Below, one piece after another: positions 52,340-62,592 of a stretch of 64,000 nucleotides of DNA. The position numbers and the translations under genes are program-made. The stretch spans positions 1-64,000 of the forward strand of contig JBFLXB010000009.1 in the NCBI GenBank assembly GCA_040757335.1, given 5' to 3'. How positions within the stretch are numbered: the stretch's first letter is position 1; each line of letters begins with the position of its first letter. The stretch comes from Nitrospirota bacterium (lineage in GTDB: Bacteria; Nitrospirota; Nitrospiria; 2-01-FULL-66-17). A model generated the notes under the pieces. That model did not search any database. It saw nothing but the letters and a program-made list of their open reading frames with translations, and was not told where the DNA came from.

Positions 52340-52415
52340 GGGGGGTTAGCTCAGTTGGGAGAGCGGCTGGTTCGCAATCAGCAGGTCACCGGTTCGATCC
52401 CGGTACCCTCCACCA
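52340..52415 (+). tRNA. tRNA-Ala (anticodon CGC), integration target
   Basis: A 76-base cloverleaf with encoded CCA. The acceptor pairs GGGGGGT with ACCCTCC and contains the G3-U70 wobble that identifies alanine tRNAs. The D arm begins GCTC, the anticodon loop is TTCGCAA (anticodon CGC) on the stem GCTGG/TCAGC, and the T arm contains GGTTCGATCC. The gene is intact because the integrated element restored its 3' half. Confidence 0.93.
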
Positions 52416-53614
52416 CTTAAATTCCTCGTAAGACCAAGACCTTGTGACACCGCCCCCGTCTGGGGGCGGCGCGGTTTTTGCCGATTTGCTACCAGTTTGC
52501 TACCACTTGGTTCTGGAGCAGCGTCATCCAAGCGATCGACCGCCGCCTTGTTGCCTTTCGGAAGCCACTTCCCATACGTGTCCACGGTAAGGCGGATCGA
52601 CGCGTGGCCCAGTTGCTCCATGACGTAGACGGGGCTTTCGCCTTGCTGCAAGAGTAATGAGGCGAACGTGTGCCGCAGGCAGTGCGGAGTGAAGTGCCCG
52701 GGCAACTTGGCGGCCTTCAGCGCCGCACGCATTGCGCGTCTGACGTTCCCCTCGTCCATGACGGTCCCGTGAATTGAACAGAACACCCACGGCGGCATCT
52801 TCGTCCATCCTCGCTTCAACTTTTCTGTCCGCCGCTCGATGAGGAGGCGATCGAGACGTTCCTTGAGTTGCAGGCTCATATCGACCACCCGGCCGGTTGC
52901 GGTTTTCGTCGTCCCGATTTCTCCGGCCGAGATCCCCTTGGTGATCCGCAACTCGCGAGCGGCAAAGTCGAGATCGTCCCACTGAAGGGCGCGTGCCTCC
53001 CCGAGCCGGAGACCCGCGCGCGCGAGCGTTAGGAACAGCGGCGCATAACGCGGCTCTTCCAGCTCTGCTGCAGCGAGAAATCGGACGAGCTGCTCACGGG
53101 TCATCGCCTTGATCTCTTCCTGGCGCTCTTTTGCCCGCTTGCTCAAGCGGAACTGCCGACCGATCCGGACCGTGGGATTGGCCAGAATCACCCCGTCGAC
53201 CACGGCGGCGTTCAACATCGCACGAAGGGTGCCATACATGATCCGCACCGTGGCCCTCGAAAGATTCAGGGAAAGCTTCTCGGCGAGAAATGCCCGCAGA
53301 TGGGCTGGGGTCAGCCGGCAAAGCTTGAGGCTACCGAACTTGGGAAGGATGTGAAGGCGCAGATTCTGCTCGTAACTGAGCAGGGTCCGTGGTTTAATCG
53401 TCGGGGCGATAAGCTTGAGCCACGATTTCGAGTAGGTCTCGACCGTGATGTCGCGGTCGTACGCCGGCAGGGCACCCAGACGCGCCTCACGAAGTTTGTC
53501 CGAGAGAACGTCTTTTGCTTCTCGCCGCGTCTTACAGGTCACCCACCGACGGATTCCTGCGCTGTCCCGGTAGTCGACGATCCACTTTTTCCGTCGTTTT
53601 CGGATGCAGGCCAT
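52346..53614 (-). CDS. int: tyrosine recombinase/integrase reading into the tRNA
   Basis: A 422-residue phage-type integrase. An N-terminal arm-binding domain (KWIVDYRDSAGIRRW) and a SAM-like core-binding domain (about 60-170) precede the catalytic domain. The catalytic set is visible: Arg in ARAGLRLGEARALQW, HCLRHT, then Tyr in TVDTYGKW. The frame has no stop before the attachment site, so its last 20-odd codons (including RDRTGDLLIANQ) are antisense of the tRNA. A GGGGG ribosome-binding site precedes the ATG. Confidence 0.93.
   Translation of the reverse strand: MACIRKRRKKWIVDYRDSAGIRRWVTCKTRREAKDVLSDKLREARLGALPAYDRDITVETYSKSWLKLIAPTIKPRTLLSYEQNLRLHILPKFGSLKLCRLTPAHLRAFLAEKLSLNLSRATVRIMYGTLRAMLNAAVVDGVILANPTVRIGRQFRLSKRAKERQEEIKAMTREQLVRFLAAAELEEPRYAPLFLTLARAGLRLGEARALQWDDLDFAARELRITKGISAGEIGTTKTATGRVVDMSLQLKERLDRLLIERRTEKLKRGWTKMPPWVFCSIHGTVMDEGNVRRAMRAALKAAKLPGHFTPHCLRHTFASLLLQQGESPVYVMEQLGHASIRLTVDTYGKWLPKGNKAAVDRLDDAAPEPSGSKLVANRQKPRRPQTGAVSQGLGLTRNLSGGGYRDRTGDLLIANQPLSQLS
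52450..52479 (+). terminator. hairpin with T-run after the tRNA
   Basis: An 8-bp GC stem CCGCCCCC/GGGGGCGG with a GTCT loop is followed five bases later by TTTTT (52475-52479). It is a plausible terminator for the tRNA transcript, imperfect because of the gap before the T-run. It lies inside the 3' end of the integrase reading frame on the other strand. Confidence 0.55.
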
Positions 53615-54162
53615 GTTCCCCCTTCTTTCTCACCGCCGCCTTCTAGAATCGAAGGCAGCGGCACGAGGCGTTCGATCGGCGAGCGAGACCGAGTCGCTCC
53701 CCTCGCAGCGAGCCGCCGTTTTACAGGATGACGGACGGCCAAATCAATACGGGGGCCGCGAGCCTGTCGAGCCTTAGGCGCCACACGACTCAACCCATGC
53801 GAAGTCGTATGGCCAGGAACTCGCTCTGCTCCCTTCTGGTTGTCCTTAAGCCACACCTCAAGATCCGAGGCACGAATTCGAACGTACTTTCCGAATCGGA
53901 CGGTCGGCAGAACGCTCCTTCGAGCGAGATCGTATGCGTAGGGAGCAGGAACTGATAGCCGTGTTGCCACCTCGGGAATGGTCAGAAGCTGGTCTTTCGG
54001 CGGACGTGATTCGCTTTTGTTGTGAGCGTCGTTCAACAGCCGCGCGACCAACGCGCTCTGAGTGGCCGCCAGACGCAGTAGCAGTGCCGGAATCTCGCCC
54101 GACGGAATGGCGGCGATGTCTTGACAATGATGGACGAGCGAGCCCGAATCTCCGTTGTTCAT
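53539..54162 (-). CDS. excisionase-like helix-turn-helix protein
   Basis: A 207-residue protein. Residues about 55-105 form a MerR/Xis-type DNA-binding domain (LLTIPEVATRLSVPAPYAYD, then FGKYVRIRASDLEVWLK). The rest is basic and probably disordered. Such proteins control excision by the neighbouring integrase. The ATG overlaps the upstream TGA (ATGA) and the 3' end overlaps int by 76 bases. It could also be a general replication/regulatory HTH protein. Confidence 0.75.
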   Translation of the reverse strand: MNNGDSGSLVHHCQDIAAIPSGEIPALLLRLAATQSALVARLLNDAHNKSESRPPKDQLLTIPEVATRLSVPAPYAYDLARRSVLPTVRFGKYVRIRASDLEVWLKDNQKGAERVPGHTTSHGLSRVAPKARQARGPRIDLAVRHPVKRRLAARGATRSRSPIERLVPLPSILEGGGEKEGGTWPASENDGKSGSSTTGTAQESVGG

Positions 54163-54395
54163 GATACTCCCCCTATCGCGCAGGGGCCGACGGGGTCTGG
54201 CAGGCTCTGTTGATCTACCCCAGACTGCGGTTTCTCGGGTTCGCGCGCCCGATACCCGCAGATCGGACACCGCCAGTTCTGTTCAATCGACTCCCACACC
54301 AATCCGACGGTGTCTGGATCACGCCCCGCTCCGCAGTGCGGGCAGGCAAAACCGCGCAGGCCTTCGAGAATCTCACTCACCCGCTCCAGACTCAT
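54159..54395 (-). CDS. small double zinc-ribbon protein
   Basis: A 78-residue protein with CPHC near residue 18 and CPIC near 43, a two-knuckle zinc ribbon, followed by a Pro-rich tail. It is translationally coupled to the excisionase-like gene. A nucleic-acid or protein-binding role is likely; no named family was recognised. Confidence 0.6.
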   Translation of the reverse strand: MSLERVSEILEGLRGFACPHCGAGRDPDTVGLVWESIEQNWRCPICGYRAREPEKPQSGVDQQSLPDPVGPCAIGGVS

Positions 54396-54407: not shown

Positions 54408-55370
54408 TTATCCCGCTCCGGCTCTACGACGGCGGACTGGGCAGTCCTCCCGACAGAACGGCAGAATCAATGGATCCTCGCACCCATAGCTCGTGTAGTT
54501 TCTCTCATACACCGATCTGACCTTCTCTCTGATTATCGGCAGCCCCAACGGCGGCCGATTCCTTCTCGCATCCCACCGGCGCAGGATCTGTTCGGCCCTT
54601 TCCCTTGAGAGGCCACTGGCTTTGAGGTGGATCGCCAGACGAAACGCCACGACGTCGCGGCACCCTTCACCAACTCCCCGCATCATGGCCTGCGCGCAGG
54701 GTAAGAGGTCACCGTGGTACGCACGGGCATCCCTGTCTCTCGCCTCCGGGTGGGCCCGAGAGGCACGCGCCTGCCGGACCAAAGCTGCAATTTCGCGCGG
54801 GTGCACGGTTGGGATGCGGTCAATGTAGTCCCACTGATCGGCATATGGTTGATGGGACTCCGGATCCACAAACACTGTCTTCCCTAGCGGAACCGATTCG
54901 CCCGAGAGCGGAAGCCAGATGAAATTGCCCAGGCCATTGGCCGGCACGACATCCTGCTTGGGAAAGATTTCGGCCTTCACGCCAGCCTTGGCGAGCAGCG
55001 TCAGCGCCACCGCTCTGGCATCCCGTGCCGGAACCGATTCGGCAAAGAACAGCCACAGATGCCCGCCGCGGCTCTTACTGATTTCCCGGCACAGGGCCAG
55101 ACCATACTGCGATGCGCGCTCGACCACCACATCCTCCGCGCCTTCCGCCTGCGGTCCATCGAAGTCGAGCGCGAGAAAGTGCGTGTGGCCATCATGCAAG
55201 AGCGGGTAGACGCCCAGGCGAAGCTTTCCCTCCAGGTGTAGCCGGTACTGGGCGAGCGTGAGCCGGCGCCGAACCGCGCAGATCCGCCCGGCCTGCAAGA
55301 CTCCGAACGCGTCGGGCCGTCCGCGAAACAGCGCCGCGAACCGCTCCAGGTCAACAAGGGTCCACTTCAT
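54408..55370 (-). CDS. archaeo-eukaryotic primase (AEP), TOTE-type
   Basis: A 320-residue protein resembling the primase domain of TOTE conflict systems. It has FRGRPDAFGV and LGVYPLL before the metal-binding FLALDFDG (about residues 66-73), the SRGGHLWLFF motif (about 99-108), then EIFPKQD, GLGNFIWLPL and DQWDYI. A C-terminal helical PriCT-like region ends in a cysteine-rich segment (YGCEDPLILPFC, CREDCP), a possible Fe-S or zinc site. It probably primes replication of the element. No TOTE partner helicase-nuclease fusion is adjacent. Confidence 0.82.
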   Translation of the reverse strand: MKWTLVDLERFAALFRGRPDAFGVLQAGRICAVRRRLTLAQYRLHLEGKLRLGVYPLLHDGHTHFLALDFDGPQAEGAEDVVVERASQYGLALCREISKSRGGHLWLFFAESVPARDARAVALTLLAKAGVKAEIFPKQDVVPANGLGNFIWLPLSGESVPLGKTVFVDPESHQPYADQWDYIDRIPTVHPREIAALVRQARASRAHPEARDRDARAYHGDLLPCAQAMMRGVGEGCRDVVAFRLAIHLKASGLSRERAEQILRRWDARRNRPPLGLPIIREKVRSVYERNYTSYGCEDPLILPFCREDCPVRRRRAGAG

Positions 55371-55380
55371 CGCCGGCTCT

Positions 55381-55605
55381 TCAGCTCAAGGCATGGTGCA
55401 GCGCTTCAACGCGGGGAATTCGCCCATAGCCACCGTCCGCGTACCGATATGTCTCGCCAATCCGATCAACGTTGATGTATCGACGCGTCCAGATGTGCTT
55501 AAAGAGCAGAATGCCCTGCACCTCTCCGACAAACATGAACTCCCGATACGCCCCCCCGACGACCTGCTCGAGCAGGGGCCATGGAATCTCAGAGGTCTCG
55601 ATCAT
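55381..55605 (-). CDS. small protein of unknown function
   Basis: A 74-residue protein (MIETSEIPWPLLEQVVGGAY at the start). The ATG at 55605 is selected because GGGAGGA lies 5 bases upstream; a longer frame up to 55713 lacks such a signal. It looks like a compact alpha/beta fold with several aromatic residues. It precedes the primase gene by 10 bases and may be co-transcribed with it. Confidence 0.5.
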   Translation of the reverse strand: MIETSEIPWPLLEQVVGGAYREFMFVGEVQGILLFKHIWTRRYINVDRIGETYRYADGGYGRIPRVEALHHALS

Positions 55606-55667
55606 AGCATCCTCCCAGATTCGAACTCTCCCTCTCGTGATTACCGCCATCCTAGCGGCGTGTTCCC

Positions 55668-55970
55668 TCAACGACTCCTCACGTCTCGGCCAGCAGCATC
55701 GAGAATCTGGCACGGGTGCCCGCTCAATGGCTCCTCCTCAACGTCATCAAGGAGCATCGCCGCGGCGGCGTACCAGATACGCAGCATGCCCAGAAGATCC
55801 TCGAGCTCGCCGCTGACCGGATTCGGATCGCCATACGCGTGGTACGCGTGATCGGCTGCCGCGCGTGCTTTCTCAACAGCCGTGTCGACGGCATCAAGCG
55901 CTTGGCCCAGCGCCCGAACCACGTCCTGGCGGGAATCCACAACCTCTTCACCCAGCGCGGTGAGATCCAC
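55668..55970 (-). CDS. helical protein of unknown function
   Basis: A 100-residue protein beginning on GTG at 55970, 7 bases after the DUF932 stop. It is predicted to be mostly helical (ALGQALDAVDTAVEKARAAA, then LEDLLGMLRIWYAAAAMLL). The frame is open further upstream, but that is shadow of the DUF932 gene. No family recognised. Confidence 0.5.
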   Translation of the reverse strand: MDLTALGEEVVDSRQDVVRALGQALDAVDTAVEKARAAADHAYHAYGDPNPVSGELEDLLGMLRIWYAAAAMLLDDVEEEPLSGHPCQILDAAGRDVRSR

Positions 55971-55977
55971 ACCGCAC

Positions 55978-57147
55978 CTACACCAGCGCGAGATCGCGGC
56001 TGCGGAGAATGGTGCCTGCCAGGTCCTCCAGCGCACCGGCCTGATCCGGATCGGATTCATCCTGGGCCAACCGCGCGACCGCCTGCGCCATCCCGTAGCG
56101 CGTGGCGTCGTACTCGCGAAGGAAGTACTCCAGGAGCGCGTTGCGCTTCTCCTCGGCGAGGCCGACCGCCTTGGCCACGTTCTGGACGGCCGAGTGCGGC
56201 GAGGTGACCGCGTCATCCTGCGCCTGCCGCGCGATCGCGACGATTCGGGCGAATGTCTCGGGATGAAACGCGCTTCTGATGGCATCGCGCGCCTTGAGGT
56301 AAATGAGCTTCGACTCCTGGCTCACCGTCTCCTCGGTGAAGATCCCCACCGCGAGTCGCTCGCCGAGATGTACCTTGGCCACCACGTCCTCCACCGTGGC
56401 CAGGTTGAAGCAGATCGCGCGCAAGAGCCCGATGCGCACGCCAAAGCCGCCGTGCCCTGTCTCGCTGTTGGACACGGTGACCAGCGGATGGACCGTTCCC
56501 GGCCCGCCCGGCAGGTCGCCGCCGACCCGTGCGGAGACGCGCCGCAGGTGCTCCTGATTGCCGAGGCCGCCCGAGTACCAGGAGCCTGGATCGCCCGTTC
56601 TCCTCTCGTCGATCGCGTCCCAGATCGAGCGGGTCGTGAACTTGAGCTTCATGCGCGTGTCCGAAAGACTCGCCTCGATCACTTCGCCACCGGCTGCTCG
56701 CACCGCATCAAGCGCCGCGAACGCAATGTCGTAGTGATCCAGTACGCGGTACCGGTCCGACAACACCGCGCGCACGTGGCCATCCAGGCACCGGATGAAC
56801 CGCCGTCCCGGGGCATCCTGCATCAGCCCGTTGAGCAATTCGGCCGCACGCACCGGGCGTTCGTGCGCCAACTCCTTCATGAACCGCCCGGGGACTGGCG
56901 GGACCACCTTGCTCCCCATCTGTTCCAGCGCCAGATCCTGGATCGGCAGACCCTGCTGGGGGAGCCATGCCATCGCATGGGGCTCGGTGGGCACGAGGGA
57001 GAGCTGCCCATCCCGTGCCGCCACCGCCAGACTGCGCGTATCCGCCACGAAGTCGATCCTGGCGTTCTTCTGCCGCTCGAGCTCCCCGACAAGCTGATCC
57101 AGCCGTCCCCGTCCCGTCCACGCGGCAAACTCCGACACGGTTTCCAT
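55978..57147 (-). CDS. DUF932 (phage/plasmid-like) protein
   Basis: A 389-residue member of the DUF932 family, common on plasmids, phages and ICEs. Family blocks seen are FIRCLDGHVRAVLSDRYRVLDHYD (given in part), KLKFTTRS, NSETGHGGFGV and the helical C-terminal third. The function is not established; it tends to sit beside recombination genes, as here. AAGGAGGAA lies 7 bases before the ATG. A leader with a 12-bp hairpin precedes it. Confidence 0.85.
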   Translation of the reverse strand: METVSEFAAWTGRGRLDQLVGELERQKNARIDFVADTRSLAVAARDGQLSLVPTEPHAMAWLPQQGLPIQDLALEQMGSKVVPPVPGRFMKELAHERPVRAAELLNGLMQDAPGRRFIRCLDGHVRAVLSDRYRVLDHYDIAFAALDAVRAAGGEVIEASLSDTRMKLKFTTRSIWDAIDERRTGDPGSWYSGGLGNQEHLRRVSARVGGDLPGGPGTVHPLVTVSNSETGHGGFGVRIGLLRAICFNLATVEDVVAKVHLGERLAVGIFTEETVSQESKLIYLKARDAIRSAFHPETFARIVAIARQAQDDAVTSPHSAVQNVAKAVGLAEEKRNALLEYFLREYDATRYGMAQAVARLAQDESDPDQAGALEDLAGTILRSRDLALV

Positions 57148-57262
57148 GTCCGTTCCTCCTTCTCTGTGATGACGAGCTGCATCGAATGACGACGCCTCGT
57201 CTCGTGAAACACCACGGGCCAGCACTCGTCGCTGGCCCGTGGGAGTCCCTGATCGTCTTTCG
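57148..57262 (-). promoter_or_regulatory. leader element F (A-rich box plus hairpin) before the DUF932 gene
   Basis: On the minus strand, the box CGAAAGACGA (57262-57253), directly after the stop codon of the upstream gene, is followed by a perfect 12-bp inverted repeat CCACGGGCCAGC/GCTGGCCCGTGG (57242-57212) with a 7-base loop, then AGGAGG and the start codon. It is the loosest member of the leader family: the box has one G in the A-run, the spacing to the hairpin is short, and GTGAC is missing. Confidence 0.55.
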
Positions 57263-57264
57263 AA

Positions 57265-58218
57265 TTACGCCGTCGTGGCGTCCGTTCCCGTTGGCGCTGG
57301 AGGCACTGCCAGGTCCTTAAGCTGCGCCAGGACCTGATCCGCCTCGTCCTGTCGCAGTTCGACCGACTTCTCCACCCCGAAGGTTTTGAGCACCGCGGCC
57401 ACGCGACCCTTGCCGAGGCGCTCAGCCCAGCTCCAGATCGCCTCAAGCTGCGCGGCCTGGATCCCCGCGGTCCTGGCGCGCTTGCCCCCGACCTGCACCA
57501 CCGTGGTCAACGCGCGGGTGACCGGATCCCGTTGACGATCCGGCGCAGAGCCGTTCGCCGGTGCGGCCGGCTGTCCGGTTGTGGCCTGAGCGTCCGCGGG
57601 CGTCTCGCCGTTGGCCTCGGCCACCGCCTGGGCCTCGCGCTGCTCGTGCGTGATTTCGTCCGGCTCGCGGTACTCCACCCCCAGCAGCTTCTTCTCCACG
57701 ATCGCCTCGGCCTTGGTCACGGCCGTCCGCTCGCCGAACCGCTTGATGCGGGAGAGCTGCTGGATGATCGCGAGCTGGTCGGCGGGCTCGGTCAGCACGG
57801 GAAACCCATCCGGGCCGACCGTGTAGGGCTTGCCCGCTTTGACGACCTGGCCGTCCCGGTCGGTCTTGTGCGCGATCGCGTTCCAGATCAGGTCCTCGCA
57901 CTCGGTCCGCCAGACGATCGTGACCTTGGCCTCGCGCTGCAAGACGGGGTTCGCGTCGGGGCCGATCCAGCCTTTGACGTGCGCCCAGGCCATCTCGGTA
58001 TCGCACCCGGCCGCGACGATCCGCGTCTTGATTCCGGCCTCCTTGGCCCAGTTGTTGTAGACCCGCGCGCTCGGGATCAGCTTTCGGCCGCACCGGCGGT
58101 CATAGACCGCGTAGAAATCGCGCGCGGTGATGGCCGTTTCCTTCTTGAGCTGTTCGACCGGGTCGAACGTCGCGACCTCGGTTCCGGTCTTGGTCTGACC
58201 ATTCTGAGTCGTGGGCAT
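57265..58218 (-). CDS. possible single-strand annealing protein (RecT/ERF-like), otherwise unknown
   Basis: A 317-residue protein. The conserved-looking middle contains SRIKRFGERTAVTKAEAIVE (about 155-174), reminiscent of the Ala/Arg-rich helix in RecT/Rad52-type annealing proteins. A Gln/Ala-rich linker then leads to a C-terminal motif (GIQAAQLEAIWSWAERLG, then FGVEKSVELRQDEA) of the kind found at the ends of phage annealing proteins. The next gene is a PD-(D/E)XK nuclease 14 bases away, as in exonuclease/annealase pairs. The assignment is inference. Confidence 0.55.
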   Translation of the reverse strand: MPTTQNGQTKTGTEVATFDPVEQLKKETAITARDFYAVYDRRCGRKLIPSARVYNNWAKEAGIKTRIVAAGCDTEMAWAHVKGWIGPDANPVLQREAKVTIVWRTECEDLIWNAIAHKTDRDGQVVKAGKPYTVGPDGFPVLTEPADQLAIIQQLSRIKRFGERTAVTKAEAIVEKKLLGVEYREPDEITHEQREAQAVAEANGETPADAQATTGQPAAPANGSAPDRQRDPVTRALTTVVQVGGKRARTAGIQAAQLEAIWSWAERLGKGRVAAVLKTFGVEKSVELRQDEADQVLAQLKDLAVPPAPTGTDATTA

Positions 58219-58232
58219 GGCAACCTCCTCCT

Positions 58233-59045
58233 CTAGACGATGACCTCTTCGTCCGTGATCTCCTCCGTCAACACCAAGTCCTTGGGGATCGCGGCCTCGT
58301 CACCCAGGCACAGCGGCCGATAGTCGCACCCGCCCCACTGTCCGCAGGAGGAGGTCTTCTTGGGAAACCGCCCCCGGACAATGTCCGACGCCACGAGGGC
58401 GAGCTTGTCGCGATACTCGGCGACCTCCTCGGGCCTGCGCGTGGCGAAGTGCCACTCGATCCGCGGTTCCTTGAGCTTGAGCAGTACGCAGAAGGCCACG
58501 CGGTCCACCGGCAAGTGGTTGGCCTCCAGCAGCCACCAGTACGCGGTGAGCTGCTCGTTGAGCCGGACTTCTTCGGGGTCGTACGAGGCCTGGGCGGTCT
58601 TGAAGTCCACCAAGGTGCGCAGGCCGTCGACCCGGGCGTACAGGTCGGGGTAGCCGATGAACGTCACGCCAGCGAGTTCGGCTGAGAGGTGCCGTTGCAC
58701 GCACTCGGGCCGGACCTCGGAGAAGCGGGGTCGCTCTTCTTTCATGAAGCGCTCGAGTAATGCGCCGCCGATGTCGCGGAGCGCCTCCCACGTGTGCCGC
58801 TTGCCCCACGCCACCGGGGCGCCCCTGAGCGCCTCCCAGGCCCCGCTAAACACGGCGAGAGGATCGGCGTCTTGCTGGAACAGCGCCGACAGCGCCCGAT
58901 CAATGGCGCCCCCGAAGAGCAGCGACGGACGCTTGGCGATCGGCCGCCAGCCCTCGACGTAGTAATAGCGATACGCGCGCGGGCAGAAGTCGTGGCGCGT
59001 GACCTTGCTGTGGGAAAGCCTCATCGCCTCAGCGACCATCTGCAT
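58233..59045 (-). CDS. PD-(D/E)XK nuclease, RecB/Cas4-like with probable Fe-S cluster
   Basis: A 270-residue nuclease. The active-site residues lie in GYPDLYARV (Asp) and TLVDFKTAQ (D-x-K), about residues 130-150. Four cysteines, one near the N-terminus in DFCPRAYRYY and three near the end in SCGQWGGCDYRPLC, match the 4Fe-4S arrangement of Cas4/AddB-type nucleases. The ATG at 59045 lies within the end of the helicase gene, so both are co-translated. Confidence 0.83.
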   Translation of the reverse strand: MQMVAEAMRLSHSKVTRHDFCPRAYRYYYVEGWRPIAKRPSLLFGGAIDRALSALFQQDADPLAVFSGAWEALRGAPVAWGKRHTWEALRDIGGALLERFMKEERPRFSEVRPECVQRHLSAELAGVTFIGYPDLYARVDGLRTLVDFKTAQASYDPEEVRLNEQLTAYWWLLEANHLPVDRVAFCVLLKLKEPRIEWHFATRRPEEVAEYRDKLALVASDIVRGRFPKKTSSCGQWGGCDYRPLCLGDEAAIPKDLVLTEEITDEEVIV

Positions 59046-61080
59046 GTCGTGACCTTCCCGCCAAGAGGCCATGAGGTCGGGGACCTGGTTTCGCCCAGAC
59101 CACCGACCCGTCTTCAGTCCCACATCGCGATCGTCCCGGACGAATGTCCTCCAGAAACGACGACGGCGGGTGGCTGATGTCCCGCCCCTGGAGCAGGCGC
59201 CGGCGGCACCACGAGAGCACCAGCCGTGATCGGGCGCGGGTGATGGCCACGTAGAGCAGCCGCCGCTCCTCCTCGATCGTCTCGCGGCAACGCGCGTGCG
59301 GGAGGATGCCCTCTTCCAGGCCGAGGACAAAGACCGAATGAAACTCGAGGCCCTTGGCCGCGTGGATCGTCATCAGCCGCACGCCGTCGGCCGGGCTCCC
59401 GTCCGCGCCCTGCCCCAGGCCCGCCTGCGCGAGAAACTCCCCCAGTACATCGTCCGAGCCTTGCTCGTCGCGCGCCGCGATCGTCTGCAACTGCTCGATG
59501 TGCGTGAGCCGCCGGCTGCCGTCGGGAAATGCCTTGAGCAGGTGAGCTTCGTAGCCCAATCGCGTGAGTACCGCGGCGATGAGCGCCGGGACCGAGCGGG
59601 CTTCCTCGCGGAGCGCCTCGATCTGGAACCGTAACGCCCGCAACGGGCGACAGGACTGGCTCAGGCTTTGGAGCACGTCCGGGAGCGACCGCGCAGGGTC
59701 GGCCTTCAAACGCTCTTCGATCTGCGCCAGCGCCTTCTTCCCGATCCCCCGCGGCGGCACGTTGGCGATGCGCAGGAAGCTCACCAGGTCGTGGGGGTTA
59801 TGGATCCAGCGTAAGTAGGCCAACACGTCCTTGATCTCCCGCCGGTCCCAGAAGGCCAGACCGTCCACCAGGTGGTAGGGAATCAGCGCCCGCGCCAGCT
59901 CACGCTCGATCGGCCGGAAGAGCGACGCCACCCGGCACAGAATCGCGATCTCACCGAGGGGCACGCCCTGCGCCCGGGCCTGCTGGATCTGCTCGACGAT
60001 CCACCCCGCCTCCACATCCTCCCAGGAAAACCCGACGACACGCACGGGCTCGCCGCAAACATTCGCCGTGCGGATGGTTTTCGGCTGGCGCTGCCTATTG
60101 GCGACGATCGCGCGGCGCGCCGCCTCGATAATCGCGCCGGTGGAGCGGTAGTTCTCCTCCATGCGGAGGATCTGGCTGCCCGAATAACGCTGCTCGAAGG
60201 TGAGGAGGCCGCTCGCGTCAGCGTGCCGGAAGGCATAGATCGCTTGATCGTCATCCCCCACCGCGCACAGGTTGTAGCCGGGCGCGGCCAGCAGCCGGAG
60301 CAAGCGTTCCTGCAAGGGGCAGGAGTCCTGGTACTCGTCAACCAGGAGGTGCTGGTAGCGGCTCCGCACGCGCGCTAAGACCGGCGGGTGCTGCTCCAGC
60401 ACGCGGACGGTGGCGAAGAGCAGGTCCGCGAAGTCCAGGGCGTCGCACCGCGCGAGCATCTGCTCGTAGCGCGCATACGCCCGCTGCAGCAGATCCACGT
60501 ACTCGCGCTGGACCTCGCCGCAATCCAGCGCCCCGGCAAGGTCTCCCTCCGGAGCCACGCCGAGGTGTTTGAGGCGATCGAGGTCGGCCCGCAGCGAGGG
60601 CTCGTAGCCCTCGGCCTCCAAGTCCTTGGCCACGCGCCGCACTACCTCGCTCGCGTCGTCGCCATCGTAGATGGTGAAGCGGTTGCTGCGCGGGATGAAC
60701 GCGTGGTGCATGCGCAGCAGCCGCACGCAGAGGGCATGGAACGTGGCAACCGTCATGCCCCCGAGTTGGCCGCCCAACAGGTGCGCGATCCGGTCCCGCA
60801 TGTTCGCCGCGGCTTTGTTGGTGAACGTCAGGCACAGGATGCGCGAGGCCGGCACGCCTCGGACCGCGACGAGATAGGCCGCCCGGTGGGTGATCGCGCG
60901 GGTCTTGCCCGAACCGGCCACCGCCAGGACCAAGACCGGCCCCTCTCCGTGCTGGACCACCTCGCGCTGCTCGGCATTGAGGCCCGCCAGGAGGGTCTCC
61001 GCGCGAATCGGCTCCGCAGGTGCGTTGGGCAACTCCAGCCACGGCAGCGTGACCTGCATCGTCTTGGCGCTCACAGGCAT
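59029..61080 (-). CDS. UvrD/PcrA/Rep-like SF1A DNA helicase
   Basis: A 683-residue 3'-5' helicase. Motif I is VAGSGKTRA (about 52-60), Ia LTFTNKAA, II LLVDEYQD, III GDDDQAIYAFRHA, IV ENYRSTG, V VRLMTIHAAKGLEF and VI LLYVAITRARSRL. The last 35 residues are Arg/Gly-rich and overlap the nuclease start. It overlaps radC. Chromosomal UvrD/PcrA are longer, and the element location implies a role in replication or recombination of the element. Confidence 0.92.
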   Translation of the reverse strand: MPVSAKTMQVTLPWLELPNAPAEPIRAETLLAGLNAEQREVVQHGEGPVLVLAVAGSGKTRAITHRAAYLVAVRGVPASRILCLTFTNKAAANMRDRIAHLLGGQLGGMTVATFHALCVRLLRMHHAFIPRSNRFTIYDGDDASEVVRRVAKDLEAEGYEPSLRADLDRLKHLGVAPEGDLAGALDCGEVQREYVDLLQRAYARYEQMLARCDALDFADLLFATVRVLEQHPPVLARVRSRYQHLLVDEYQDSCPLQERLLRLLAAPGYNLCAVGDDDQAIYAFRHADASGLLTFEQRYSGSQILRMEENYRSTGAIIEAARRAIVANRQRQPKTIRTANVCGEPVRVVGFSWEDVEAGWIVEQIQQARAQGVPLGEIAILCRVASLFRPIERELARALIPYHLVDGLAFWDRREIKDVLAYLRWIHNPHDLVSFLRIANVPPRGIGKKALAQIEERLKADPARSLPDVLQSLSQSCRPLRALRFQIEALREEARSVPALIAAVLTRLGYEAHLLKAFPDGSRRLTHIEQLQTIAARDEQGSDDVLGEFLAQAGLGQGADGSPADGVRLMTIHAAKGLEFHSVFVLGLEEGILPHARCRETIEEERRLLYVAITRARSRLVLSWCRRRLLQGRDISHPPSSFLEDIRPGRSRCGTEDGSVVWAKPGPRPHGLLAGRSRHADGR

Positions 61081-61583
61081 CCTCCATTCGCTGGAATCAG
61101 GTGGTGATCCGCGAAGCTGAAGAAGCGCTCGTCGCCCACGATCACATGGTCGAGCACGGTGATGCCCAGGAGCCGGCCGGCCTTGACCAATCGCTCAGTC
61201 AGCTCGCGATCCTCACGGCTGGGCTCGGTGTCGCCGCTGGGGTGGTTGTGCGCTAATATGACGGCCGCAGCGTTCGAGAGCACCGCGGGTTTGAAGACCT
61301 CCCGGGCATGGACGAGCGCCGCGGTCAGCGAACCGATCGCGACCACGTTGAGCGCGTTGACGCGGTGCTTGCCGTCCAGCAGCAGGAGGACGAAGTATTC
61401 GCGGTCGGCGCCGGCCAGATAGGTCTGGACGAGCTTGGCCGCGTCCGAGGACTGGCTGATCGCGTTGGACCCGTAGGGAAACTTCCCCTCCCGCACCATC
61501 TGGATGCGGACCACCGTGATCGCGCGTCGCCCTGGTCGAAGGAGTGGTTGATCTCGGCAAGACGCTCCGTCGGCATCGCACAC
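61071..61583 (-). CDS. radC: RadC-like JAMM-domain protein
   Basis: A 170-residue protein containing the RadC MPN domain only, without the N-terminal HhH. The JAMM-like motif is ILAHNHPSGDTEPSREDRE (about 107-125). Stand-alone RadC proteins are typical of mobile elements; no catalytic activity is established. GTG at 61583 follows AGGAGGGAG by 5 bases. The first 20 residues look unnatural, and another frame from the ATG at 61576 reads better (MPTERLAEINHSFDQGDA), hinting at a frameshift near 61525. The leader element E precedes it. Confidence 0.88.
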   Translation of the reverse strand: MCDADGASCRDQPLLRPGRRAITVVRIQMVREGKFPYGSNAISQSSDAAKLVQTYLAGADREYFVLLLLDGKHRVNALNVVAIGSLTAALVHAREVFKPAVLSNAAAVILAHNHPSGDTEPSREDRELTERLVKAGRLLGITVLDHVIVGDERFFSFADHHLIPANGGCL

Positions 61584-61801: not shown

Positions 61802-62206
61802 TTAGAACGGAATATCGGCCTCCCCCGGATCCGGGCTGTCTTGGCCCGCCGTCTGTCCAGGGCCATGGCCGTTCGCCTTCCCCAGATAGATAATCCGCTG
61901 CGCCACCACGTACAACCGCTGGCGCTTCTCCCCGGTCTCCTTGTCGTTCCACTCGTCCTGCCGCAGTTCGCCGTCGATCAGAACCTGCCGGCCCTTGTGC
62001 AGGTACTGGCCTGCGTGCTCGGCGTGCTTGCCGAAGGCCCGGACCGCCACAAAGGTGACGGCCTCGACGATCTCCTCGGTCTCGGCCTTGCGGTACTTGC
62101 GATTGATGGCCACGGAGAAACCGGCCACGGCCGCCCCCCCTGGGGTGGCGCGCACTTCCGGGTCCTGAGTCAGTCGGCCCAACATCGTGATTCGACAGTA
62201 GTCCAT
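61802..62206 (-). CDS. ssb: single-stranded DNA-binding protein
   Basis: A 134-residue OB-fold protein (MLGRLTQDPEVRATPGGAAV at the start, then VAVRAFGKHAEHAGQYLHKG and the EWNDKETGEK loop). The C-terminal tip EADIPF is the acidic peptide that recruits partner enzymes. It is shorter than chromosomal SSB, as is usual for element-encoded copies. AGGGAGG lies 7 bases before the ATG. Confidence 0.94.
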   Translation of the reverse strand: MDYCRITMLGRLTQDPEVRATPGGAAVAGFSVAINRKYRKAETEEIVEAVTFVAVRAFGKHAEHAGQYLHKGRQVLIDGELRQDEWNDKETGEKRQRLYVVAQRIIYLGKANGHGPGQTAGQDSPDPGEADIPF

Positions 62207-62235
62207 GACAGATCCTCCCTGTGTGCCTGTGTGAG

Positions 62236-62592
62236 TTATTGAATGTCCAGCAACACCTGAACGCCCTGTTCGCCCGCAATGCGTGCCAGCAATGCCGCCA
62301 GCAAACGGCGATGGCATCGGGCTGGTAACGCCTCGTAGCAAACCAGGGTGACCTCGGGACGACGGAGCAACGTCAGGAAGAGATCCGGCGAGCGTTGAGC
62401 GAGCGTTTCCATCTCCACGCGGTACCGGCGCTCATACCCATCCCACGAGACCCGTCCCGCCTTGTACGCCGCGAGCAGCCCCTCGGATGGCGCGAACACC
62501 CGCCCGTTCTCGAACACTCGCAACGAGCCCCATCGATACGTCGCCAGGTCGCCGGGGCGCGCCTGATGGATCGAACGCGTGCGAATCACCAT
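62236..62592 (-). CDS. DUF488 family protein
   Basis: A 118-residue protein with the family C-terminal signature VTLVCYEALPARCHRRLLA (about 81-99), where Cys and His are conserved, and an N-terminal strand pair. DUF488 function is unknown. AGGAGGAG lies 5 bases before the ATG at 62592; a longer frame to 62757 runs through the preceding gene and leader. It is 29 bases upstream of ssb. Confidence 0.78.
   Translation of the reverse strand: MVIRTRSIHQARPGDLATYRWGSLRVFENGRVFAPSEGLLAAYKAGRVSWDGYERRYRVEMETLAQRSPDLFLTLLRRPEVTLVCYEALPARCHRRLLAALLARIAGEQGVQVLLDIQ

Follow-up and report, generated by a model that had tools for sequence, protein, structure and literature searches.

A stand-alone AEP–PriCT primase with a four-cysteine site, encoded by an integrative conjugative element at a tRNA-Ala gene

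The product of the gene at 54408–55370 of the window (the whole stretch of 64,000 nucleotides analysed here, positions 1–64000 of contig C9 of genome G000) is very probably a primase that an integrative conjugative element (ICE) uses for its replication and transfer. This reading is built on what is observed of the gene and its surroundings: the domains, the catalytic residues, the conserved cysteines, the ICE context and conservation in a second genome. The original prediction left two options, a split version of a TOTE conflict system and replication initiation, and the latter is favored by the AEP, PriCT and four-cysteine build of the protein and by its conserved ICE context.

The primase gene, its domains and its catalytic motifs

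The gene is real and the interval first proposed for it stands. It lies on the minus strand; in frame at this place, the plus strand is interrupted by stop codons. The gene and the parts of its product are the following:

54408..55370, minus strand: stand-alone AEP primase, 320 aa, with an AEP domain, PriCT_1 and a four-cysteine site
54756..55370, minus strand: AEP catalytic domain, residues 1–205, with D69/D71, H104 and E134 (conservation; structural match to CAPP)
54495..54680, minus strand: PriCT_1 domain, residues 231–292 (Pfam)
54696–54698, minus strand: C225, fourth cysteine of the four-cysteine site
54441..54482, minus strand: C-terminal cysteines C297-x8-C306-x3-C310 of the same site (conserved in alignments A1, A2 and A7)

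Two Pfam matches, both far above chance, define the architecture. AEP-TOTE (PF22548) matches at 6.3e-40 (137.6 bits versus a cut-off of 27), with residues 37–196 corresponding to profile positions 61–229, and PriCT_1 matches residues 231–292 at 1.3e-8 (34.8 bits versus a cut-off of 21.1). The catalytic residues of the AEP superfamily are D, H and E. The motifs from which a primase was originally proposed are present as DFDG at residue 69, SRGGH ending at H104 and DQWDYI at residue 178, together with AEIFPKQ around E134, and D69, D71, H104 and E134 show little or no variation across 37 aligned sequences.

The four-cysteine site

The cysteine-rich C-terminus noticed at the outset is likewise borne out, with C225, C297, C306 and C310 invariant or nearly so among 37 aligned sequences. 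The pattern is found at 156 of 162 viral, phage and genome loci and in 0 of 28 TOTE-type proteins, a count hardly touched by selection in that only one of the six patterns of one scan covers the cysteine end; the six loci that lack it are five SAR116 loci and L209. The spacing of the last two cysteines is C-x3-C in the 320-aa primase versus C-x4-C in phages, an offset of one position in the alignment.

In Kazlauskas 2018 (PMC5862659) PriCT-1 is described as akin to the Fe–S domain of the large primase subunit, and that domain has been described as two subdomains providing two cysteines each to a 4Fe–4S cluster (PMC4434180). In the 320-aa primase one cysteine marks the beginning of PriCT and the other three come after the domain, so that a metal site at the place equivalent to that of PriL would be plausible. 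Sequence searches of the PDB gave no convincing match for the PriCT/cysteine part, and in the fold comparison the top rows span the AEP part (residues 2–206), so that the proposed link to the PriL Fe–S domain rests on the published PriCT-1 relation and on the order of the cysteines.

Predicted structure and the CAPP prim-pol

The AlphaFold model of the primase has a mean pLDDT of 83.9, with lower values at residues 201–220 and toward the cysteine end. Among solved folds, the best match is the Marinitoga CAPP prim-pol (PDB 7nqd/7nqf; Foldseek 1.5e-15), and 7nqd superimposes on residues 5–206 with a Z score of 26.4 and an rmsd of 2.0 over 198 residues at 28% identity. This closeness raises the possibility of a relative of the CRISPR-associated prim-pols that aids adaptation or repair, a reading also favored by matches to the PADLOC PrimPol models and to NCBIfam PrimPol_Msp (NF040561; 1.7e-27). 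The latter match reaches 96.2 bits, however, under a cut-off of 200 bits, a score that rules out membership of the CAPP family in spite of the fold. In addition, neither cas1 nor cas2 was detected in the block genes covered by the profile searches, and there is no CRISPR-like repeat array at 52–64 kb. We therefore regard a role of this kind as extremely improbable.

The integrative conjugative element

The primase is carried by an F-type ICE, with an integrase at a tRNA gene, type IV secretion genes and a coupling protein. The gene order on the minus strand is SSB, RadC, UvrD, PD-(D/E)XK nuclease, 317-aa protein, DUF932-like protein, small helical protein, 110-aa ORF, primase, zinc-ribbon protein, excisionase-type protein and integrase:

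52340..52415, plus strand: tRNA-Ala(CGC), where the element is integrated, marking one of its ends (ARAGORN; its 3′ half recurs elsewhere in the genome)
52346..53614, minus strand: tyrosine integrase, 3′ end overlapping the tRNA gene (Pfam Phage_integrase, 8.1e-27)
53539..54270, minus strand: ORF for an excisionase-type HTH protein (TIGR01764 excise, 2.4e-9)
54159..54395, minus strand: 78-aa zinc-ribbon protein (CPHCG...CPICG), starting 12 bp past the primase stop and directly downstream of the primase in G404 and G042 also
55381..55713, minus strand: 110-aa ORF just upstream of the primase (the G404 homologue, 43% identical over 77 aa, is directly upstream of its primase)
55731..55931, minus strand: reading frame of a small helical protein, part of ORF 55668–56285 (58% identity to a 79-aa protein of the G404 block)
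55978..57225, minus strand: DUF932-like protein (phrog_1362, 2.2e-29; 68% identity to G404)
57265..58218, minus strand: 317-aa protein without a family match (homologues at C49 and in G368 and G404)
58233..59330, minus strand: ORF for a PD-(D/E)XK (Cas4/RecB-like) nuclease (Pfam PDDEXK_1, 7.5e-22; PHROG exonuclease, 3.5e-14)
59029..61080, minus strand: UvrD/PcrA-type SF1 helicase (Pfam UvrD-helicase, 3.2e-73)
61071..61583, minus strand: RadC-like JAB protein (Pfam, 1.4e-43)
61802..62341, minus strand: single-strand DNA-binding protein, SSB (Pfam SSB, 5.7e-28)

The Pfam matches agree with the original description of a separate nuclease and helicase on the strand of the primase, about 3–6 kb off. 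Past the window, contig C9 encodes an actin-like partition-type protein, TraG (TraG_N), TraH, TraN, TraU, TraC, a TrbI-like protein and the coupling protein, and a 511-aa HD-domain protein (C9:99962–101497; weak MobH match, E 0.05) is a putative relaxase. No further copy of the attachment site is present on C9 up to the contig end at 110,027. Prophage identity was considered and rejected: the element has genes for conjugation, and among the ORFs read none stood out as coding for a phage structural protein.

The DUF932-like protein is about 26–28% identical, over most of its length, to the best-matching plasmid genes annotated DUF932. The 317-aa protein has no match in Pfam, NCBIfam, PHROG or PADLOC, no plasmid match and no PDB match better than E 0.75, and it is present in 3 of the 269 genomes of the class. 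By eye it is reminiscent of phage annealing proteins, and it contains strongly conserved stretches such as KRFGERTxVTKAEAIVEKKLLGVEYRE.

The company of this protein, an exonuclease-like protein, UvrD and RadC in one block with the primase brings to mind a repair primase-polymerase, which would fill gaps as part of a recombination module (nuclease, SF1 helicase and the protein at 57265) rather than initiate replication. An exonuclease/UvrD/RadC/primase arrangement does recall phage recombination modules, and we count this in favor of such a role. PriCT and the four-cysteine site, on the other hand, constitute the build of a phage primase, and the protein at 57265 shows no detectable relation to annealing proteins, its structural model being poor (pLDDT 55.7). 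We consider the repair role very unlikely.

Several further features of the genome touch on the element and its integration site. The genes on the other side of tRNA-Ala resemble, by eye, chromosomal housekeeping genes. Within the ICE, C9 74956–90000 (L005 and L006) appears by eye to hold metal-transport-like cargo, comprising an ABC transporter, a P-type ATPase, RND-type efflux and an outer-membrane factor. The 3′ half of tRNA-Ala with a few additional bases (window 52370–52421) has eight further copies of 46–52 bp and 94–100% identity on three other contigs of G000: C8 (2098, 26665 and 47465), C18 (56493, 60195 and 63316) and C20 (17806 and 19172). No full tRNA-Ala gene accompanies these copies in the stretches read, and they are possibly attachment-site remnants of related elements. 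At about 27.5–47 kb of C8 (L145 and L146), a cluster that resembles nitrogenase (nif) genes by eye lies between two such repeats in the same orientation and may be a mobile nif island.

Conservation of the block in other genomes

The block recurs in G404, which belongs to another family of the same class. Here, the same tra genes and the actin-like gene are accompanied by the order SSB–RadC–UvrD–PDDEXK–unknown–DUF932-like–primase–zinc-ribbon, at 41–75% identity. Individual values are 65% for SSB, 65% for RadC, 60% for UvrD, 64% for the nuclease, 56% for the 317-aa protein, 68% for the DUF932-like protein, 43% for the 110-aa protein, 55% for the primase and 45% for the zinc-ribbon protein. Between its DUF932-like and 110-aa genes, G404 has methylase-like, SNF2/SF2-type helicase (Pfam) and ribonucleotide reductase-like genes. 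A third primase, in G042 (50% identity), is cut by the contig end and is followed by the same zinc-ribbon protein (46%). Complete examples of the ICE block number only two among the 269 genomes of the class.

The ICE-primase profile has matches in 20 of these 269 genomes, with a full-length ICE-type primase in 2; coverage in the other 18 is partial, and mostly concerns the AEP part within long ORFs. A contig scan with two narrow patterns returned 11 distant loci.

The RadC–UvrD–PDDEXK–unknown cassette is also found without the primase, at C49 1550–5872 of G000 (L154) and on C38 of G368 (L153), the latter genome having no match to primase profile A1 (a search run without a positive control) or to profile A4. 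The primase is therefore not required wherever the cassette stands. At C49 the cassette is followed by long genes that are, by eye, possible defence cargo. Primase, nuclease and helicase accordingly occur together in each of the two complete elements, but the nuclease/helicase cassette can exist apart from the primase.

Comparison with TOTE-type proteins

The TOTE-type character first ascribed to the primase applies to its AEP domain, which scores 137.6 bits versus 27 and lies nearer the TOTE AEPs in the tree described below, but does not apply to the protein, which has neither the fusion nor the DRxFPxQ motif of TOTE proteins. The Pfam name AEP-TOTE is in itself barely informative, since plain phage primases also pass its cut-off (L123 with 48.1 bits and L036 with 55.6 bits).

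For comparison, we used a TOTE-type set of 28 AEP proteins drawn from matches in long ORFs and not fetched by motif. The third catalytic motif is DRxFPxQ in 27 of these 28, as opposed to AEIFPKQ in the 320-aa primase. The 28th is a viral 794-aa AEP–PriCT–DUF3987 fusion (L159 7587–9971), which branches near the TOTE/CAPP/ICE side of the tree. The five of the 27 that were checked by Pfam all combine the AEP domain with a ResIII/DEAD SF2 helicase. One of them is in G000 itself, at C20:52346–54808 (L142; 820 aa, AEP-TOTE 320 bits, ResIII/DEAD helicase), and the other four are plasmid proteins of the same build. About 4 kb from the C20 protein lies a gene 63% identical to the ICE gene C9:65888–66238. 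When plasmids were searched with the 320-aa primase, no match covered 80% of the query; the matches listed fall in the AEP part and belong for the most part to genes with a DEAD/DEAH helicase annotation, and the same holds with the G404 primase as the query.

The likeness to TOTE proteins lies in a homologous AEP domain, about 34–42% identical in the best plasmid and own-genome matches, that is the nearest AEP branch in the tree. TOTE proteins differ in being fused to an SF2 helicase, in having DRxFPxQ and in having no four-cysteine site, and the 320-aa primase, which stands alone without an SF2 helicase, is the opposite on each point. In most aligned TOTE proteins the AEP core is also preceded by a zinc-ribbon insert, which the 320-aa primase does not have.

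Could the primase, the PD-(D/E)XK nuclease and the helicase nevertheless be a split TOTE-type conflict system on the ICE, serving defence or counter-defence, as the original prediction envisaged? In favor of this reading, the AEP domain is above the Pfam AEP-TOTE cut-off and branches nearest the TOTE AEPs (97/80), the nuclease and helicase share the block with the primase in both complete elements, and UvrD matches the PADLOC GajB models. Matches of the GajB type are expected for any UvrD, however. The nearby helicase is of the SF1 UvrD/PcrA type, as opposed to the ResIII/DEAD SF2 helicase of the TOTE-type proteins (5/5 by Pfam), and the nuclease is Cas4/RecB-like; for this reason we do not regard the genes as a split TOTE system. 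The TOTE set is further separated by DRxFPxQ and by its missing cysteines, the cassette and the primase are separable, a TOTE-type protein already exists elsewhere in the same genome, and the TOTE AEPs form a clade of their own without the primase (100/98). With helicase superfamily, third motif, missing fusion and clade all against it, the split-system interpretation was rejected, and we assign it a very low probability.

Phage primases and the AEP tree

The 320-aa primase also matches PHROG 21866, annotated ‘primase’, at 2.2e-24 (residues 7–315, profile positions 3–328). A phage member matches profile positions 2–538, and positions 329–538 are missing from the 320-aa protein. The phage primases of this family, such as those of Klebsiella phage VLCpiS6a and Acinetobacter phage vB_AbaS-Bhz9, have the AEP domain, the PriCT region and the four cysteines in the same order, and share with the 320-aa primase the FPKQ motif and a stand-alone gene. 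Identity to the best 11 phage records is 25–30% over 96–98% of the query. The phage proteins, at ~500 aa, extend ~200 residues further at the C-terminus (a length of 500–549 aa is found for 141 of 147 viral ORFs), whereas the ICE primases end soon after the cysteines and are followed by the zinc-ribbon gene. The motif [ED][IVL]FPKQ is found at 162/162 viral, phage and genome loci, a figure that is partly due to selection because the fetching patterns included AEIFPKQ. In four phage records the primase homologue has helicase and DNA polymerase genes in its vicinity, and one of these records also lists SSB.

An unrooted AEP tree of 64 rows resolves three groups. The TOTE clade comprises 23 rows on one side of a branch (100/98) with the ICE primases outside, the phage/genome clade comprises 36 rows (100/100), and a separate branch (100/95) unites the three ICE primases. 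This last branch attaches on the TOTE side (97/80), nearer the TOTE AEPs than the phage primases. An earlier quick tree gave the same picture. Since the phage primases form a separate clade (100/100), we reject an ordinary phage primase by descent. It also follows that the function of the phage proteins is not direct evidence for that of the ICE primase, because the AEP domain of the latter is nearer the TOTE AEPs.

A probable replication and transfer primase of the ICE

For the favored reading, a primase serving replication and transfer of the ICE, we infer the enzymatic activity, the metal and the step in the life of the element at which the protein acts. The AEP domain would make primers on single-stranded DNA of the element. 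The PriCT_1 domain, closed by the four cysteines, would help to initiate these primers in the manner of the primase large subunit in archaea and eukaryotes, and the cysteines probably bind a metal, either 4Fe–4S or zinc. The primers could then be used for second-strand synthesis after conjugative transfer, for plasmid-like replication of the excised circle or for both, and the primase presumably acts together with the SSB, UvrD helicase, nuclease and RadC of the element. Points in favor are the conserved catalytic residues, the match to phage primases over residues 7–315, CAPP as the best solved fold, the integration, partition and conjugation genes of the element and the recurrence of the block in G404. 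Points against are the small number of complete blocks (two), the position of the AEP domain nearer the TOTE AEPs, the cassettes that have no primase, the weak match of the putative relaxase and the far end of the element, which was not found on the contig.

On this reading, a suspected defence protein becomes an ordinary but informative replication part. Three sequence tests, namely DRxFPxQ or FPKQ, the four cysteines and helicase fusion, tell TOTE proteins apart from similar primases of mobile elements, which pass the Pfam AEP-TOTE cut-off as well. Should the order of the branches prove correct, it would also hint at the origin of the TOTE primase domain. A more speculative proposal, which we advance tentatively and consider doubtful, is that the ICE primases are a third AEP lineage, one that has had no name until now and is closer to the TOTE AEPs than any other stand-alone relative. 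They would retain an older AEP–PriCT–four-cysteine build, with the catalytic (PriS-like) and metal-site (PriL-like) functions in one small chain, and the separate zinc-ribbon partner in place of the phage C-terminal domain. If this is true, the TOTE conflict systems took their primase from the replication machinery of conjugative elements.

Relation to known systems

The CAPP prim-pol and the 320-aa primase have the AEP fold and EIFPKQ in common. As described (PMC8211822), CAPP also has a C-terminal domain with a PriCT-like region and conserved cysteines, as in the 320-aa primase, but it has in addition an N-terminal TPR domain and is located in a CRISPR operon, neither of which was found for the 320-aa primase.

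AEP primases with PriCT-1 are known from prophages and conjugative elements integrated in tRNA genes under the name PrimPol-PV1 (Kazlauskas 2018, PMC5862659). The likeness extends to the AEP and PriCT-1 domains, to the tRNA integration sites and, for some of the elements, to conjugation genes. The 320-aa protein differs in that its AEP domain falls in the TOTE/CAPP Pfam family, PrimPol-PV1 being set beside it here by its published description. Because AEP primases on integrated conjugative elements are already in print, the kind of gene is known. What appears to be new is (i) that the ICE primases form their own branch, nearer the TOTE AEPs than the phage primases, and (ii) that they lack the ~200 residues at the C-terminus of the phage proteins and are accompanied by a small zinc-ribbon protein. 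A limited literature search found no description of a branch of this ICE type, which has the zinc-ribbon partner but not the C-terminal part of the phage proteins.

A replication module important for transfer has been described for ICEHin1056, with SSB, DnaB, TopB, a TraC-type primase and RadC (PMC3739013). Its primase is traC-like and not an AEP primase, it includes DnaB and TopB, and no UvrD, nuclease or DUF932 gene is named in the description of the module consulted. The two share a module in which the ICE supplies a primase, SSB and RadC itself; that of ICEHin1056 supports transfer.
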